A DNA stretch of 64,000 nt, taken from the NCBI GenBank assembly GCA_040388535.1, contig JAZKBR010000007.1, positions 130,862 to 194,861 on the forward strand, given 5' to 3'. Below the pieces are notes generated by a model. That model was not told the DNA's origin. It did not search any database and was given only the letters and a program-made list of their open reading frames with translations. Positions within the stretch are counted from its first letter, which is position 1. The number at the start of each line of letters is the position of its first letter. A program made the position numbers and the translations under genes. Origin of the DNA: Gemmatimonadota bacterium. Its GTDB lineage: Bacteria > Gemmatimonadota > Gemmatimonadetes > Gemmatimonadales > GWC2-71-9. Below, piece by piece: positions 30,646 to 38,295 of this stretch.

Positions 30646-31860
30646 ATGGATATTTTCGTCGCCAGGCAGCCCATCTTCGACCGCGGCCGTCGCGTGGTTG
30701 CCTACGAGTTGCTCTTCCGGTCCGGCCTCCAGAATTCCTTCGGAAACACCGACCCCACGGTCGCCTCCCTCTCGATGGTGGGGACGACCCTGATGGGGTT
30801 CGGCCTCGATGCTCTCCTCGGCGACCGGCGCGGCTTCTTCAATGCCTCGCGCAGACTGCTGGTGGAGGAGCAGTGGCGTTCATTGCCAGTCGAGAGCGCC
30901 GTCATCGAGGTGCTCGAGTGGGTCAGCCCGGATGAAGAAGTCATCGCCGCCTGCGCTGCCCTCAAGGCGGCGGGGTACCAGCTCGCCCTCGATGACTTCG
31001 TCGCCTCGCCAGAGTATGAAGCGCTGGTAGAGTACGCCGACATCATCAAGATCGACTTCCTCGCGACACCGGTGGCGGAACGCGCCGAACTGGTGCAGCG
31101 CTTCAAGCCGCGCGGAATCGTGATGCTCGCGGAGAAGGTCGAGACCTACGAAGATTTCGCGATGGCACTCGATGCCGGCTACGATCTCTTCCAGGGCTAC
31201 TTCTTCTGCAAGCCGGAGATGATGAAGGGGAAGGATCTCGCGCCGTTCAAGGGGAACATGGCGCGCCTGATCGCGGAGATGAACCGGCCGGAGCTCGACT
31301 TTCCGCGACTCGAGGAACTGATCCAGCAGGAAGTCTCACTGTCGGTAAAGTTGCTGCGCTTCCTCCGCTCGGCGAGCTTCGGCTGGCGCCACGAGGTCAC
31401 CAGCATCAACCAGGCGTTGCGGATTCTGGGCGAGAAAGCGGCGCGAAAGTGGGCCTCGCTCGTGGTGCTCACGATGATCGGCGACGACAAGCCGATGGAA
31501 CTGGTGACCACGTCGCTGGTGCGAGCCCAGTTCTGCGAAGAAGTCGGTGCGCGACTGCCGAACGTCGACCGACGCGGCGACTTCTTCCTGGTCGGGCTCC
31601 TCTCGACCATCGACGCCCTGCTCGATCGGCCGCTGCCGGAGTTGCTGCAGGAGATGTCACTGAGCGAGGATGTCCGCGAAGCGCTGCGGGGTGAGGCCAC
31701 GGCGCTGGGCGAGTGCCTCGCGATGGTCACCGCCTACGATCAGGGTGATTTCTCGCGGGCTGAATCGCTCGCCGCCGAACGCGGGCTCGATTCCGAGGAA
31801 CTCCCGGCGGCATACACCAAGTCGATCGCCTGGGTCGACGAGATCTTCGCTTCGCTCTAA
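30646..31860 (+). CDS. Degenerate EAL-HDOD signalling protein (YuxH/CdgJ type)
   Basis: 404 aa, cytoplasmic. Residues 1-200 are an EAL-like domain: FVARQPIFDRGRRVVAYELLFRS stands where active enzymes have the EAL(L/V)R motif, LDDFVAS replaces the DDFG..., and QGYFFCKP closes the fold. Loss of several metal-binding acids means c-di-GMP phosphodiesterase activity is unlikely. Residues 205-404 are an HDOD domain (SVSLSVKLLRFLRSASFGWR, ITSINQALRILG). In Vibrio CdgJ and Bacillus YuxH this pairing acts through protein contacts to regulate motility or biofilm. Its stop TAA interlocks with the stop of the convergent Mur-ligase gene. Confidence 0.92.
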   Translation: MDIFVARQPIFDRGRRVVAYELLFRSGLQNSFGNTDPTVASLSMVGTTLMGFGLDALLGDRRGFFNASRRLLVEEQWRSLPVESAVIEVLEWVSPDEEVIAACAALKAAGYQLALDDFVASPEYEALVEYADIIKIDFLATPVAERAELVQRFKPRGIVMLAEKVETYEDFAMALDAGYDLFQGYFFCKPEMMKGKDLAPFKGNMARLIAEMNRPELDFPRLEELIQQEVSLSVKLLRFLRSASFGWRHEVTSINQALRILGEKAARKWASLVVLTMIGDDKPMELVTTSLVRAQFCEEVGARLPNVDRRGDFFLVGLLSTIDALLDRPLPELLQEMSLSEDVREALRGEATALGECLAMVTAYDQGDFSRAESLAAERGLDSEELPAAYTKSIAWVDEIFASL

Positions 31861-33473
31861 CCTGAGACGCGCGCCTCGAGCAGTGCGATGACCCGGGCGC
31901 GCGCGTCGAGGCCGTGAACGGGGAGCACCAGCAGGTCTCCGACCCTGGCCCACCGCAACGCCTCCACCACCGCATCCACTTCGTCGAGCACCGTTACCAG
32001 CTGATCCTCCGCGGCGCCGAGACGGCGGAGTTCGTCGTGGATCAGCGCGGGAACCTCGCCGACATCGCGCCCGCGACGGTACCCTTCCAGCTCCTTGATG
32101 ATGATCCGATCCGGCCGCGCGTCCCACGCCGCCCGGGCGAGTGCCGCGATGGCGTCGTCGCCGCGGTTGCCTGCCTGACCCAGCAACAGCAGCAGCCGCG
32201 CCGGGGCCTGCGATCGTGCCACGGCGAGGAGACCTGCGAGCCCGGTCGGGTTGTGGGCATAGTCGAGCAGGACTTCGATGCCATCGAAGCGGTACCTGCC
32301 CAGCCGGCCGGCATTGTCCGCGGGCCGGACACCAAAGGTGCGCAGCACTTCGGCAATCGTGGCCGGTGCGACGCCGAGTCGGCTGGCGGCGAGTGACGCG
32401 GCAAGGGCGTTGGCGACGTTATAGCTGGCACTGCCTCCAACGGTGAGTGGCATCGCGGTGATCGCACCGAGATCGTGACGGCCGCTGGCATCGTCGAGTA
32501 GCAGTCGATCGCCATCGCGCCACGCGGCGACCTGGTGGGTGCGAGTGGTGACCGCAGCTCCACTCGGGGAAAACCAGACGGCGGCATGCTCGGTTGGCAA
32601 TGCGCTGTCGAGCAGAGTCGGGTCATCGCCGTTCAGCACCAGCACACCATCGCGACGGAGCCCCTTGGCCGCCACGAGTTTGACCGTGGCAAGATCGGCC
32701 AGCGAGGTGATGCCGTACTCGCCGAAATGATCCGCTTCGATGTTGGTGACCACCGCCACATCAACGCCGAGCACCCCGAGCCCGCGCCGCAGGATGCCAC
32801 CGCGCGCCGTCTCGAGCACGGCACCCTGCACGGCCGGGTCGGCAATGACGCGTTGCGCTCCGGCCGGGCCCGACCAGTCACCAACCTCCACCGCTTCGCC
32901 CGCGATGAAGACGCCGTCAGTGCAGCACCAGCCGGTTCGCCAGCCGTGTGCCGTCATCATCGCCGCGATGAGGCGAGTCGTCGTGGTCTTGCCGTTGGAT
33001 CCGGTGACGAGCGCCACGTGACGATCGGCGTGCGCGACGATCGCGAGATCGTTGCTGGGAGCGAGGATCTCGGCCTCCGCCATTGCGGCGAGCTGGGCGA
33101 TGGCGCCCGCTTCGTCACGCGGCAAATCACCAGGCGAGAGGAGCGGGGGCAGCGGTGCAAACCCCGCGCGACGCACCGCATCCGCCCACGCCCACTCGTT
33201 GACCTCGGTAGCGGTGAGGAGCCGGTCACCGGGGGCCGTAAAGGCGAGCATCAGGTGCCCGGCACGCTGCTCGGCCACCAGATGCGGCACCGGCCAGCCC
33301 AGGGCCTGGAGCAGTCGGCGAACCGTCTGCTCCCAGGCAGATGCAATCGTGGCCGCCGCGTCGGGTGGCGCGGTCCCTTCGAGCACGACACCCGGCAGGT
33401 CGAGCCAGAGACTGGGGCCGAAGAGTCGTCGCGAGTCGCTGAAATCCGGTGTGTCGGAGAGCGGAGAATCCAC
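31857..33473 (-). CDS. Stand-alone Mur-ligase-type protein of the cyanophycin cassette
   Basis: 538 aa, starting 5 nt after the cphA stop. An N-terminal region of about 155 residues (RRLFGPSLWLDLPG... start) resembles the non-catalytic N-domain of cyanophycin synthetase in places but lacks the ATP-grasp module. The Mur ligase central domain begins with P-loop TGSNGKTTTTR (near residue 160), has the ETARGGILRRGLG and TNIEADHFGEYG segments also found in CphA, and the C-terminal ligase domain has LLDYAHNPTGL. So it is a paralogue of the Mur half of CphA. It could add a residue to beta-Asp-Arg material, prime the polymer, or help CphA structurally; none is shown. Its stop interlocks with that of the EAL-HDOD gene. 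Confidence 0.85.
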   Translation of the reverse strand: MDSPLSDTPDFSDSRRLFGPSLWLDLPGVVLEGTAPPDAAATIASAWEQTVRRLLQALGWPVPHLVAEQRAGHLMLAFTAPGDRLLTATEVNEWAWADAVRRAGFAPLPPLLSPGDLPRDEAGAIAQLAAMAEAEILAPSNDLAIVAHADRHVALVTGSNGKTTTTRLIAAMMTAHGWRTGWCCTDGVFIAGEAVEVGDWSGPAGAQRVIADPAVQGAVLETARGGILRRGLGVLGVDVAVVTNIEADHFGEYGITSLADLATVKLVAAKGLRRDGVLVLNGDDPTLLDSALPTEHAAVWFSPSGAAVTTRTHQVAAWRDGDRLLLDDASGRHDLGAITAMPLTVGGSASYNVANALAASLAASRLGVAPATIAEVLRTFGVRPADNAGRLGRYRFDGIEVLLDYAHNPTGLAGLLAVARSQAPARLLLLLGQAGNRGDDAIAALARAAWDARPDRIIIKELEGYRRGRDVGEVPALIHDELRRLGAAEDQLVTVLDEVDAVVEALRWARVGDLLVLPVHGLDARARVIALLEARVSG

Positions 33474-33478
33474 GGCGG

Positions 33479-36268
33479 TCAGTCGTCGCTCTCTCGTGCG
33501 AGTCGCACCCCGCGTTCATCGCGAATCAACGTTGCCCCTTCGAGCGGGATGCGCTCCTCGCGGCGCAGCGGAAGCGGGACCACCGGGAATTCACCGGTGG
33601 TGCGCGCGGCGGGTTCGCTGCCATCGGCGCGGAAGCCGGTCACCTGATCCCACGAACGCTGCAACGAGTCCGCGAAGATCAGCACCAGGTCGCCGACCTT
33701 GGCCGATCGGAGGGCGTGATCGATGGCGAGCTGCTCGTCGGGAATCTCGGTGATGCGCTCGGCGGGCACCCCGGCGGCGACGAGCGTCCGCGCAAGCATC
33801 CGCGGGATTTCATCACCATCGCGTCCACGCAGCGAGTCATCGCGACGGCAGATGTATTGATCGAACGCACCGGCGACCGCCGTGGCGATAGCGCGAATGT
33901 CCTCATCACGACGATCGCCGGGTGCGGCCACCACCACAATGCGCTTCCCCTTGACGTCGAGTCGACGCGCCAGGTCCACCATCGCGCCAACCGCGTGTGC
34001 GTTGTGGCCATAGTCCATGATCACCCGGAACGGATGGTCGGAGTAGACATTCATCCGCCCCGGCGCCTGGAAGAACGAGGTATCGAAGGTCCGCAGCCCC
34101 TGCCGGATGCTGTCGAGCTTGATCCCGAGCGAGAAGGCCATCACCGCGGCGAACATCGCGTTCTGCACGTTGTGCAACGCGCGCCCCTCGAGCGTGGCCG
34201 GGATCAGGTGAGTCCAGAGCAGAGGAATGTGCGCTCCGTGATCGTAGAGCGTGATCATCTCGCCGTTGACCCCGGCCTCCAGGGCGCAGGCGCGACCGCC
34301 AGCGCGGATATGCTCGCGCACGAGCTCGTGCGCCGGATTGGTGGTCACGTAGCAGAGATGCTTCGACTCGGTATAGGCGGCCATCTTGAGCACGAGTGGA
34401 TCATCGGCGTTGAGTACCGCGGTATCGCGAGCCACTTCGACCACGACGCGCTTGACGTCAGCGAGTTGCTCGATGGTATCGATCCCCTTGAGTCCGAGGT
34501 GGTCCTCGCGCACGTTGAGCACGGCGCCGACGTCGACATAGCGCGTGCCCATTCCTGCCCGCAACAGGCCGCCGCGCGCCACTTCGAGCACGGCGATATC
34601 GATGCTCGGGTCGCTGAGTACCATGCGCGTCGAGGTCGGGCCGGTCATGTCGCCCTCGACGGTACGCTGACCGTTGACATAGACGCCGTCAGTGGTCGTG
34701 AGCCCGGGGGTGTAGCCGGCCATCTGGCAGATGTGCGCGAGCATTCGCGCTGTCGTGGTCTTGCCGTTGGTGCCCGTCACCGCGGCGATCGGCACCACGC
34801 TCGGCGTCCCCTTCGGAAAGAGCATCTCGATGACGGGACCCGCCACGTCACGCGGTCGCCCCTCGCTCGGCGCCGAATGCATCCGGAACCCCGGTGCGGC
34901 GTTCACTTCGCAGATGCCGCCGCCATGGGACTTGTAGCTCTCGCTGATGTCGGACGTCAGGAAGTCCACGCCGCCGACATCGAGACCGACGGCCTTGATC
35001 GCCCGGACCGCCATCTCGGCGTTGTCGGGGTGGATGATATCCGTAACATCAGTCGCGGTACCGCCGGTCGACAGGTTCGCGGTTGAGCGAAGCGGCACTA
35101 CCTGACCCGCCGCAGGGATACTCGCCGAGGTGAAATCGAGCTTCGCGAGCATCTGCTCGGCCTGGGCGTCGAGTTCCAGCCGCGTCAGCACCTTTTCGTG
35201 ACCGATGCCGCGCCGCGGATCGCGATTCACTTCCTTCACCAGTTCGGCCACGCTCGAGTGGCCATCCCCCACCACGTGCCCCGGCGTCCGCTTGGTCGCA
35301 GCGACCAGCACACCATCGACCACCAGCAACCGGTGGTCATCGCCGGTGACGAAGCTCTCGACGATGACCGATCGCGAGATCTCCTGCGCCACTGCGAAGG
35401 CCGCCCGGACCTGCTCATCGGTGGTGAGGTGAATGGCGATGCCGCGGCCGTGGTTGCCGTTGTACGGCTTCACCACCACCGGAAATCCGACGCGGCGTGC
35501 CGCGCGAGCCGCCTCATCGGCACTCTGGACCAGCTCCTGCCTCGGCACCGGAAGGCCGAGCGCACCGAGGAGCTTGTTCGTCTCTTCCTTGTCGCTGGCG
35601 AGTTCGACGGCGATGTGTGAAGTGCGCCCAGTCACCGTGGCCTGAATCCGTTGCTGATACTTGCCGAGCCCGAGCTGCACCAGCGAGAACGAATTCAGGC
35701 GCATCCACGGGATGTCGCGCGCTTCGGCCGCGTGCACGAGCGAGCCGGTGCTGGGCCCGAGCGCGCGGCGCTGGGCAAAACGGATGTAGGCGTCGCGCTC
35801 GGTGGCGAAGTCCCAGTCTGCGGGAACGGCATTCGCGGGCCGACAGGCATCGGGAAGAAGCGAGAGCAGGAAGCGAAGGGCGAGTTCGCCCGCCTCGAGA
35901 CCTTCATCGCGCTGTTCGTATTCGTAGACGACGTCGTAGACGCCATCGACCCCGGCACCACGCGTCTTCCCGAAGGTGACCTTGATCCCGGCGACATTCT
36001 GCAGTTCGATGGCGACGTGCTCGAGCACGTGCCCGAGCCAGGTCCCTTCATCCTCGGTGAGGCGACGGACGAAGCCGCCCGGCTCGCCATAGCTGCAGCC
36101 GTGTTCGCGGAGGCCGGGAAGCGCTTCGAGCAACCGGTCGATGAATGGTGCGCCAAGCCGGCTCGTCGGCCACGCCTCGAGTGCACCGAGGTCGAGTCGG
36201 AGCCGGATGACCGGGAAGTGCGCATAGAGCGAGGGGCCGACGTAGACCGCGCGATCGAGAATCTTCAT
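33479..36268 (-). CDS. cphA: Cyanophycin synthetase CphA
   Basis: 929 aa, close to the usual 870-910 of CphA1. The three-part layout is clear: N-domain (1 to about 160, with LRLDLGALEAWPTSRLG and HVLEHVAIELQ), ATP-grasp G-domain (about 210-470, with VVKPYNGNHGRGI and CEVNAAPGFRMH), and the Mur ligase M-domain with P-loop GTNGKTTTAR (499-508, Lys503), LEVARGGLLRAGMG and MDYGHNAHAVGAM. The enzyme makes multi-L-arginyl-poly-L-aspartate from Asp and Arg without ribosomes: the G-domain extends the Asp backbone, the M-domain adds Arg. Upstream genes on the same strand encode the two degrading enzymes, downstream is a Mur-type paralogue. The operon thus holds nitrogen/carbon storage and recall functions. 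Confidence 0.96.
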   Translation of the reverse strand: MKILDRAVYVGPSLYAHFPVIRLRLDLGALEAWPTSRLGAPFIDRLLEALPGLREHGCSYGEPGGFVRRLTEDEGTWLGHVLEHVAIELQNVAGIKVTFGKTRGAGVDGVYDVVYEYEQRDEGLEAGELALRFLLSLLPDACRPANAVPADWDFATERDAYIRFAQRRALGPSTGSLVHAAEARDIPWMRLNSFSLVQLGLGKYQQRIQATVTGRTSHIAVELASDKEETNKLLGALGLPVPRQELVQSADEAARAARRVGFPVVVKPYNGNHGRGIAIHLTTDEQVRAAFAVAQEISRSVIVESFVTGDDHRLLVVDGVLVAATKRTPGHVVGDGHSSVAELVKEVNRDPRRGIGHEKVLTRLELDAQAEQMLAKLDFTSASIPAAGQVVPLRSTANLSTGGTATDVTDIIHPDNAEMAVRAIKAVGLDVGGVDFLTSDISESYKSHGGGICEVNAAPGFRMHSAPSEGRPRDVAGPVIEMLFPKGTPSVVPIAAVTGTNGKTTTARMLAHICQMAGYTPGLTTTDGVYVNGQRTVEGDMTGPTSTRMVLSDPSIDIAVLEVARGGLLRAGMGTRYVDVGAVLNVREDHLGLKGIDTIEQLADVKRVVVEVARDTAVLNADDPLVLKMAAYTESKHLCYVTTNPAHELVREHIRAGGRACALEAGVNGEMITLYDHGAHIPLLWTHLIPATLEGRALHNVQNAMFAAVMAFSLGIKLDSIRQGLRTFDTSFFQAPGRMNVYSDHPFRVIMDYGHNAHAVGAMVDLARRLDVKGKRIVVVAAPGDRRDEDIRAIATAVAGAFDQYICRRDDSLRGRDGDEIPRMLARTLVAAGVPAERITEIPDEQLAIDHALRSAKVGDLVLIFADSLQRSWDQVTGFRADGSEPAARTTGEFPVVPLPLRREERIPLEGATLIRDERGVRLARESDD

Positions 36269-36289
36269 GTCGTCCCCTCGGGGAGGTAC

Positions 36290-37132
36290 TCAGCTCTTGC
36301 TGGTGGCCAGCGATCCGGCGGCAGCTTCGCGCGTGTGCAGATTGAACTGGGCGCCGCGGGTGAGGATATGCAACTGGATGCCGAGCAGCGAGACCGGCTC
36401 GTTTTCCTGGACGCGATCCATCGAGGAAAACTTCAGGCCACCACAATCCAGCACCGTCACGGAGCCGCTTCCCTCGACTTCCACGGTCTCATCCGGCCCG
36501 ATGAAGGCGGCGGTGTCTTCGTCGAGCCCGAGGCCGATCGCGAAGGGGTTGTATGCGAGCGCACTCAGCAGCCGACCAAGCCGGTCGCGCTGACGGAAGT
36601 GCTGATCGATGATCACGCGATTGGTCAGGCCCAGCCCCGGCGCGAGTGTCACGCCACGCGCCTGCGGTGACGCACCTTCGGCTCCGAATGCGATCATGTG
36701 CTCGGAGAGAAACGCGGCTCCTGCCGATGTCCCGGCGATGTTCGCGCCACTGGCGTTCAAGGTACGCAGCAGCCGCGAAACCGACGTCCCGCCGAGCAGG
36801 GTCGAGAGCCGGAGCTGGTTGCCACCGGTGAGGAAGATGCCGTCGCAGCGCGCGAGATCGGCGAGCCGACCGGCCTCTTCGCAGTCGCGGCGGGTATCGA
36901 AATCCATCACCACCACATCCGATGCGCCGAGATCTCGGAAGAGCGCTTCATAGCGCGCGCCAGTGTCGGAGAGTTGCGATGCCGTCGGGATCACGCCGAT
37001 CTGAGCATCGCGCCCACCGCAGAGCTGCACGAAGCGTTCGAGGATCAGCGGATTGCCTTCCTTCGCCTCGGCACCGCCGATCGGCACGATCCAGCCGCGC
37101 TGTTCGCCGGCGGGCACCCGGGCCGGGCTCAC
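36290..37132 (-). CDS. cphB: Cyanophycinase CphB
   Basis: 280 aa from the GTG at 37132, which overlaps the dipeptidase stop (GTGA); the longer frame to 37201 would run into that gene. Peptidase S51 fold: IVPIGGAE near the start, LTGGNQLRLS, the nucleophile elbow GTSAGAAF (Ser136), the DQHFRQRDRLGRL segment, and GLGLDEDTA. CphB hydrolyses cyanophycin to beta-Asp-Arg dipeptides in the cytoplasm; there is no signal peptide, so it is the intracellular type rather than secreted CphE. It lies between the dipeptidase that consumes its product and the synthetase. Confidence 0.94.
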   Translation of the reverse strand: MSPARVPAGEQRGWIVPIGGAEAKEGNPLILERFVQLCGGRDAQIGVIPTASQLSDTGARYEALFRDLGASDVVVMDFDTRRDCEEAGRLADLARCDGIFLTGGNQLRLSTLLGGTSVSRLLRTLNASGANIAGTSAGAAFLSEHMIAFGAEGASPQARGVTLAPGLGLTNRVIIDQHFRQRDRLGRLLSALAYNPFAIGLGLDEDTAAFIGPDETVEVEGSGSVTVLDCGGLKFSSMDRVQENEPVSLLGIQLHILTRGAQFNLHTREAAAGSLATSKS

Positions 37133-38295
37133 AGGTTGACGCCCTCGAAGTTTCCGGCCCGCTGCAGCGCGCCGCCAAGGACGTGCCAGGTTCCACCACA
37201 CATCACGTCGTGTATTCCTCCGTCAGGGTCGAGCACCACCAGATCGGCATCCATTCCTGTCGAAATATGCCCCTTGGAGGAAAGGCGCAACAACCTCGCG
37301 GGAGAACTCGTGAACGGTGCCAGCGCCACGCCGAGCGGCACCCCACGCCCCAGCAGGACACGCAGCGTCTCGGCCAGCGCGCCCGGCTCACCGATTCCCA
37401 TCGAGACGACCCGACCATCGTCGCCGAAGACCGGCAGACATCCACCACCGTCGGAACTCACCGAAAGTCGCTCGAGTGGTGCGCCGCTGTCGAGGTAGCG
37501 GACCACTGCGGTCGCGGCATCCCAGGCGTCTTCGTCGGGGGCGACCGGGAAAGCGGTGACATCGATGCGAGATCCGCCGTGCGCGAGAGCAATTGCTTCC
37601 TCGAAGAGTGCGCGGCGGCGATTCACGTGGGTCGGATTGAAGACTCGCGGTGGCAGCTCACTGGTCGCGATCGCCTGACGGATGAGCTCGAGGCCGCGCG
37701 GGCCGTCGCCGACGTGCAGGTGCATCACGCCGGCCTTCCCCGACATCAGCCCGCCAACGTGCGCTTCGCTTGCGAGCCGCAGGAACTCGTCGAGCGTGGG
37801 CTGACTCGAGCGATGATCGCTGATGGCACTCTTGAGGCCGATAATGCAATCGATCGTCGCAATGTCGCCGCGCACGGTGCCAGTGATGGTGACCGGCGGC
37901 ACGTGGTACCCGGCCGTCCAGCACCACGCCGAAAGTCCCTCGGCGCGCAAACCGTGAACCGCCGCGACCAATTCGGCCGGGTGGCGGGTGGCGTCGTCGG
38001 TGCCCAGCAATCCCACGACCGAGGTGATACCGTGGCGGGTGAAGCGGGAGAGTCCCAGCGGTGGGACCTTGGTCCCTGGCCCCGCTTCGCCACCGCCACC
38101 GGTGAGGTGGACGTGGGCGTCGATGAGCCCCGGAATCAGTCGGGCACCGGCCAGGTCGCGGCTTTCGACGCCGAGGGAGGCCGGAAGCGACGGCTGGGTC
38201 TCACCGATCCAGAGGATCCTGCCCGCGCCGATAAGGAGGTGACGGGTTCCGACCGCCTCGGGGGCATAGAGATCGGCATTGAGGAGGAGTTGCAT
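37129..38295 (-). CDS. iadA: Isoaspartyl (beta-aspartyl) dipeptidase IadA
   Basis: 388 aa from the ATG at 38295, near the 390 residues of E. coli IadA; the open frame upstream is antisense to the OmpA-like gene. Amidohydrolase fold with the metal site LIDAHVHLTGGGGEAGP, the carboxylated-lysine region LKSAISDHRS, histidines in THVNRR and the catalytic Asp in VSSDGGG. The enzyme cleaves beta-aspartyl dipeptides; here the substrate is almost certainly beta-Asp-Arg released by CphB, giving free Asp and Arg. As first gene of the cassette it is transcribed divergently from the OmpA-like lipoprotein over a 103-bp gap that must hold the operon promoter. Confidence 0.94.
   Translation of the reverse strand: MQLLLNADLYAPEAVGTRHLLIGAGRILWIGETQPSLPASLGVESRDLAGARLIPGLIDAHVHLTGGGGEAGPGTKVPPLGLSRFTRHGITSVVGLLGTDDATRHPAELVAAVHGLRAEGLSAWCWTAGYHVPPVTITGTVRGDIATIDCIIGLKSAISDHRSSQPTLDEFLRLASEAHVGGLMSGKAGVMHLHVGDGPRGLELIRQAIATSELPPRVFNPTHVNRRRALFEEAIALAHGGSRIDVTAFPVAPDEDAWDAATAVVRYLDSGAPLERLSVSSDGGGCLPVFGDDGRVVSMGIGEPGALAETLRVLLGRGVPLGVALAPFTSSPARLLRLSSKGHISTGMDADLVVLDPDGGIHDVMCGGTWHVLGGALQRAGNFEGVNL

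Follow-up and report, generated by a model that had tools for sequence, protein, structure and literature searches.

A CphA paralogue lacking the ATP-grasp domain is encoded beside cyanophycin synthetase in several phyla and may modify the polymer

The cyanophycin operon of a Gemmatimonadota bacterium ends in a gene for a CphA paralogue that lacks the ATP-grasp domain, and relatives of this protein accompany cphA in other phyla. We refer to it as MurS, a working label only, coined in this analysis. By computation, MurS descends from CphA-type enzymes and retains their architecture apart from the missing domain; its catalytic Mur residues are intact, its gene is linked to cphA, it has diversified together with the partner CphA, and its lid loops are changed. 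To our knowledge, the making of cyanophycin is ascribed to a single enzyme, CphA1, and CphA2 is the only specialised paralogue described. We propose, at about even confidence, that MurS is an ATP-dependent ligase that partners CphA and joins an amino acid other than Arg to cyanophycin or to the ends of the polymer.

The window (the whole stretch of DNA analysed, 64,000 nucleotides of contig JAZKBR010000007.1) contains a tight iadA-cphB-cphA-murS operon with all four genes on the minus strand. Profile matches and the sequence itself bear out the genes, order, strand and junctions given in the preliminary description: the GTG start of cphB lies on the iadA stop (4-nt GTGA overlap), cphB and cphA are 21 nt apart, and cphA and murS are 5 nt apart. 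The features are as follows.

37129-38295, minus strand: iadA, isoaspartyl (beta-aspartyl) dipeptidase, first gene of the operon (TIGR01975, E 1.6e-110, 370 bits)
36290-37132, minus strand: cphB, cyanophycinase, GTG start (TIGR02069, E 4e-75, 252 bits)
33479-36268, minus strand: cphA, full-length cyanophycin synthetase 1, 929 aa (TIGR02068, 1108 bits)
36017-36097, minus strand: third active-site motif of CphA (N-domain, primer-making), C58 x21 H80xxE83H84, read from the sequence
31857-33473, minus strand: murS, ATP-grasp-less CphA paralogue, 538 aa, GTG start, last gene of the operon

The TIGR01975 score of iadA is above the family cut-off, and the match covers residues 131-513 of the mechanical ORF, which extends upstream beyond 38295. 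The window CphA has N, ATP-grasp and Mur domains and can be aligned over its full length with the A. baylyi, T. morbirosei and Synechocystis enzymes of known structure; the curated TIGR02068 cut-off is 850 bits. In CphA, the Mur (M) half adds Arg and the ATP-grasp (G) domain elongates the Asp backbone. The N-domain metallopeptidase (endo-cyanophycinase) site reads Cx19HxxEH and is present in most CphA1s (PMC9262961). On the other side of murS, a gene for an EAL-HDOD signalling protein (30646-31860, plus strand) is convergent with it and overlaps its end by 4 nt; hence, murS is the last gene of the operon.

The 538 residues of MurS match the Pfam models Mur_ligase_M and Mur_ligase_C, and a Pfam search of the protein for ATP-grasp gave no match. 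The best family is TIGR02068 (E 7e-94, 315 bits over the M part only, under the 850-bit CphA cut-off), and the M domain of the adjacent CphA shares 34% identity with MurS, in agreement with the CphA-type Mur module without ATP-grasp that had been described. To call the protein an extra stand-alone Mur ligase, as was done at first, is right as to the ligase but incomplete: it is a CphA without ATP-grasp, including a degenerate N domain. Three parts can be delimited.

33168-33446, minus strand: putative degenerate CphA-type N domain, residues 10-102 (HHalign 85%; structure superposition from residue 9)
32310-33020, minus strand: Mur core, residues 152-388 (conserved catalytic columns)
31860-32309, minus strand: Mur lid, residues 389-538 (residue alignment with CphA)

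The N region has a conserved pattern of its own, DSRRLxGPN...LGW...APxDALYxATEVNEWAW. Its identification as an N domain is weak on sequence alone and comes mainly from the structure models. The first ~150 residues gave no Pfam match, and BLASTP between MurS and the CphA of the same operon detected no N-domain similarity. HHalign of 36 MurS N regions against the N domains of all CphAs returned a probability of 85%, modest if taken alone, and against those of clade-A CphAs alone the value was 6%, which is not significant. An AlphaFold model of the window MurS (mean pLDDT 85, pTM 0.86) superposes with residues 9-536 on positions 1-877 of the TeCphA1 chain 7wae_A (501 of 538 residues aligned, Z 39.0, rmsd 2.9 A), and the first non-CphA chain to match this model is a MurE, at Z of at most 28.4. 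The model of a second MurS, L007 from an Acidobacteriota MAG (pLDDT 91), aligns with SuCphA1 7lgq_A over 542 of its 554 residues (Z 36.2, rmsd 3.1 A). Both structural alignments skip the G-domain core. Moreover, most MurS retain a segment resembling 'IPWMRLN..SLVQLGLGKYQ', which in CphA follows the N domain and begins the G domain; the window MurS itself is without it. On the strength of the profiles, the two AlphaFold models and the retained flanking segments, we conclude that MurS is a CphA without ATP-grasp: in the predicted structures, the N domain and a complete Mur domain stand in the CphA arrangement and the ATP-grasp core is missing.

In the phylogenetic tree, MurS form one group (UFBoot 100, 34 members). 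It lies inside the CphA M domains, with MurE falling outside, and apart from the clade of partner CphAs. The clade-A partners are not the nearest CphAs: another CphA lineage stands closer to MurS (support 93). Since MurS is a separate deep clade, a recent duplication of the adjacent cphA was rejected as its source. We assign a negligible probability to MurS being an ordinary MurE-, MurT- or folylpolyglutamate-type ligase that stands beside cphA by accident. All these enzymes have the Mur ligase superfamily fold in common, and MurE also shares Mur core, lid, P-loop and GDR loop with MurS. However, MurS is without the UDP-sugar-binding N-terminal domain and the DNPR motif of MurE and is nearer to CphA M in both sequence and fold. 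Compared with its TIGR02068 match, the NCBIfam models of the other ligases scored far lower (MurE-type at best 2e-26, FolC 2e-8, MurT 2e-6). The position of the clade and the linkage described below, which recurs in dozens of genomes, refute this reading. A grouping with MurT or FolC and a lack of co-occurrence with cphA had been named at the outset as the signs of a misidentification; scores, tree and linkage all gave the reverse. Tree grouping and linkage also uphold the initial view of the protein as a paralogue of CphA that is connected with cyanophycin metabolism.

Among 298 genomes of the window's phylum we counted 44 copies of recognisable MurS, of which 40 lie within 1.3 kb of a CphA M domain on the same contig. 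The other four are at contig ends, and every testable copy (40/40) adjoins cphA; by this computation, the linkage is obligate. The usual gene order is cphB-cphA-murS, often with iadA in front. In Gammaproteobacteria, MurS was found in eight of 17 cphA-bearing genomes (369 genomes in all, three of the copies divergent), and in Bacteroidota in one of 23 (198 genomes in all). These class and phylum counts, with those of the window's phylum, are the unbiased figures; the loci at large were collected by a MurS search, which enriches the set of partner CphAs for MurS owners. The MurS-cphA pair is also present on alphaproteobacterial plasmids (Shinella, Ruegeria) and in MAGs labelled Acidobacteriota, Gemmatimonadota and Planctomycetota, and the MurS clade spans at least five phyla. 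Recurring as it does in dozens of genomes, the pairing is far beyond chance. MurS and partner-CphA distances are strongly correlated (Mantel r 0.85, p 0.0001, n = 33 pairs) and the two trees mirror each other; therefore, the two proteins share a long history of joint diversification. Many bearers of cphA have no MurS (22 of the 23 sampled Bacteroidota), hence MurS is dispensable for ordinary cyanophycin. Comparison of cluster neighbours revealed no recurrent family beyond iadA, cphB, cphA and MurS, and none that names the amino acid; the other large neighbour clusters were discarded as antisense shadows of these four. Three divergent MurS (L111:6192-7877, L112:4411-6108 and L113:5060-6754) adjoin cphA in gammaproteobacterial genomes of 2.0-2.1 Mb; in them, GTTGDRKYL and KETxxYLRGAEP replace the usual lid motifs, and no Arg is left at the position that corresponds to R807.

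MurS is not the only partial CphA. In the window's phylum, cphA genes of a second clade are followed by a gene not for MurS but for an N-solo protein of ~350 aa, located between cphA and cphB (L078:7099-8169, L094:6372-7472, L108:7555-8625 and about 13 other loci, L076-L110). The N-solo proteins consist of a CphA N domain in which C-HxxEH, the endo-cyanophycinase motif, is intact in 13 of 13 (alignment A3), and of a degenerate Mur core in which P-loop and lid are missing; this core has a profile match to SuCphA1 555-658. Their endo-cyanophycinase site is predicted to be active through C-HxxEH. HHalign of N-solo against MurS gave 94%, with shuffled and reversed controls at or below 0.4%. Judged by its motifs, N-solo is the reciprocal of MurS, its N domain intact and its Mur part dead. 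On a plasmid of Legionella adelaidensis (NZ_LR134428.1), L026:5290-7176 encodes an N-M protein without ATP-grasp, with the N-domain HxxEH and CphA-like pocket residues intact. It adjoins genes for a cyanophycinase (cphB) and an isoaspartyl peptidase, and no cphA was found on the plasmid, to which that search was confined. Since L026 branches with flavobacterial, full-length CphAs, its origin is independent. Another independent loss of ATP-grasp is represented by L092:4422-6266 (G212:C4), a 614-aa CphA derivative lacking ATP-grasp and HxxEH, which lies away from the complete cphA cluster of its genome and also branches with full-length CphAs. Reduction of CphA has thus occurred several times, leaving proteins with a single active site or, in the Legionella case, with two. 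A plasmid of Deinococcus sp. KNUC1210 (NZ_CP092194.1) carries, within a cphA-iaaA-cphB cluster, a second CphA that is incomplete (N, part of G, Mur; L024:4651-7177) and is split by a frameshift or into separate ORFs, and 'Mur ligase family' copies resembling it occur on other Deinococcus plasmids. A CphA-like region on a Microvirga ossetica plasmid (NZ_CP016620.1, 354693-356399; query residues 1-583), annotated as 'CapA family protein', is possibly another partial CphA.

The catalytic machinery of the Mur domain is preserved in MurS. The window protein has the P-loop TGSNGKTT, E221, R224, R229, N244, D248-H249 and K265 in the core, and its lid retains DYAHNP, R437, D439, R467 and R469. Thirteen residues that serve ATP, Mg and acyl-phosphate in the M domain are identical in 34 of 34 MurS (K499, D536, E558, R561, R566, D585, H586, K602, R731, D745, H748, N749 and R777 in SuCphA1 numbering). 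K499 is essential in TeCphA1 (PMC9427784), and D585A/H586A is an M-inactivating mutation in SuCphA1 (PMC9262961). Such strict conservation argues against a mainly structural or regulatory role, in which MurS would be a subunit of CphA oligomers or a polymer tether and its own catalysis would be unimportant. We regard this role as very unlikely. It is in keeping with the N-M arrangement that MurS shares with CphA1 and with the tetramer contacts made by the CphA1 Mcore (PMC9427784); however, those contacts are with the Gcore, which is absent from MurS, and loss of catalysis is instead seen in the N-solo proteins, where the P-loop is lost and the lid absent.

Of the 108 columns conserved in CphA M domains, MurS keeps 56 and switches 19. 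Four charged lid residues, conserved in 85-98% of CphAs, are among the switched positions: R778 (G438 in the window MurS; G, D, S or P across MurS), D781 (A441; A, Q or L), D801 (L462; M or L) and D/E857 (H520; H or L). D801 aligns with the Asp of the MurE DNPR motif, R778 and D781 align with the MurE GDRDKGK loop, and D/E857 is placed beside the GKGHE loop. On the basis of the E. coli MurE literature, we take these three loops to bind the incoming amino acid. From this alignment, we infer that the four residues form a putative amino-acid pocket. The comparison of pocket residues that had been proposed divides: the ATP-site residues are kept in essentially all MurS, but those of the putative amino-acid pocket are replaced. 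A different side-chain amino acid, as first suggested, would fit the four replacements. The switch cannot be put down to loss of ATP-grasp, since the independent losers keep the CphA loop residues, four of four in the Legionella N-M protein and three of four in L092.

Alternatively, MurS could be an auxiliary Arg-adding or initiating enzyme that places Arg onto unmodified or free Asp, so that yield would rise and composition would stay unchanged; repair and the making of a starter unit, beta-Asp-Arg or beta-Asp-Arg-Asp, are variants of the same idea. The fold and catalytic residues shared with the CphA M domain and the constant linkage to cphA are compatible with it. Loss of acidic residues alone does not exclude Arg, which a tolerant Mur lid might still bind, and the selectivity of MurS is possibly relaxed rather than altered. 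We nevertheless consider auxiliary arginylation unlikely, in view of the four replaced loop residues and their retention in the Legionella protein and, for the most part, in L092. The partner CphAs also have complete M-domain sites (D801 in 40/40) and, in clade A, the primer-making C-HxxEH motif of the N domain (36/36). The HxxEH metallopeptidase motif was found in none of the 37 MurS N regions, and the priming role put forward in the preliminary description is disfavoured by this distribution. Because partner CphAs keep both their Arg-adding and primer-making sites, what MurS contributes is an additional activity, not a substitute for one of theirs.

The acceptor side of the site may have changed too. 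The position of A567 in SuCphA1, mostly Ala or Ser in CphA, is an invariant Arg in MurS (34/34; R230 in the window), and this extra Arg, which suggests an altered acceptor site, adjoins the acceptor-side motif ARGGxxR. S603 and E607 touch the polymer in SuCphA1 (PMC9262961), and both positions are changed in MurS. These differences raise the idea that MurS acts on another polymer carboxylate, e.g. the alpha-carboxylate of the Arg side chain, or caps the chain end and so controls length or solubility. We find this distinctly unlikely: ARGGxxR itself is unchanged in 34 of 34 MurS.

MurS has the N and M arrangement, the M catalytic residues and the operon context in common with CphA1 (SuCphA1, TeCphA1, AbCphA1, TmCphA1), but it differs in the absence of ATP-grasp and of the N-domain metallopeptidase motif and in the replacement of R778, D781, D801 and D/E857. 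CphA2 of cyanobacteria is likewise a CphA paralogue minus one of two ligase activities (PMC9427784, PMC9262961). It is, however, the mirror image: CphA2 kept ATP-grasp and lost the Mur P-loop and lid, whereas MurS kept Mur and lost ATP-grasp. MurS is therefore neither CphA1, having no ATP-grasp, nor CphA2, having suffered the opposite loss. Two plasmid-encoded RefSeq entries named 'Mur ligase family protein', WP_160788060.1 (Shinella) and WP_117873666.1 (Ruegeria), belong to the same family and stand in the order cphB-cphA-murS; they carry this annotation only, with no assigned function. None of the curated NCBIfam and Pfam families covers MurS. Fueser and Steinbuechel reportedly noted in 2007 second cphA homologues (cphA') in some genomes, and an earlier mention of some MurS members is thus possible. 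In the open literature we found no description of MurS or N-solo, and a 2023 survey of cyanophycin gene clusters (PMC10206079) mentions no Mur ligase gene.

MurS arose from a CphA-type enzyme through loss of the backbone-elongating ATP-grasp domain; its substrate, product and purpose we infer as follows. To judge from its conserved residues, MurS would be an active Mur-type amide ligase that works with the complete CphA encoded just upstream. Its N domain, without peptidase activity, would probably still position cyanophycin or a short end at the Mur site. There, ATP would activate a carboxylate, most likely the beta-carboxylate of the terminal Asp, to which MurS would then attach an amino acid. 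As CphA already adds Arg and the amino-acid loops differ, MurS most likely attaches some residue other than Arg. The product may be a side-chain-modified or end-capped cyanophycin, which would then be degraded by CphB and the promiscuous IadA. Tentatively, and with clearly less than even confidence, we extend this to the suggestion that several phyla make a second, chemically distinct cyanophycin, MurS adding a non-basic amino acid to the cyanophycin that its partner CphA makes, and that CphA has repeatedly been split into partial enzymes, each with a single one of the three active sites.

In many cyanophycin producers outside the cyanobacteria, a conserved, co-diversifying side-chain-ligase partner implies an unrecognised step whose product is probably a modified or capped polymer. 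The N-solo family extends the case of MurS to a general pattern, the division of CphA into single-site enzymes. MurS is also a possible tool for producing cyanophycin that carries new side chains, which the biopolymer field has named as a goal (PMC8050183). Overall, we suggest that the owners of MurS may produce a modified, as yet undescribed variant of cyanophycin, the nitrogen-storage polymer.
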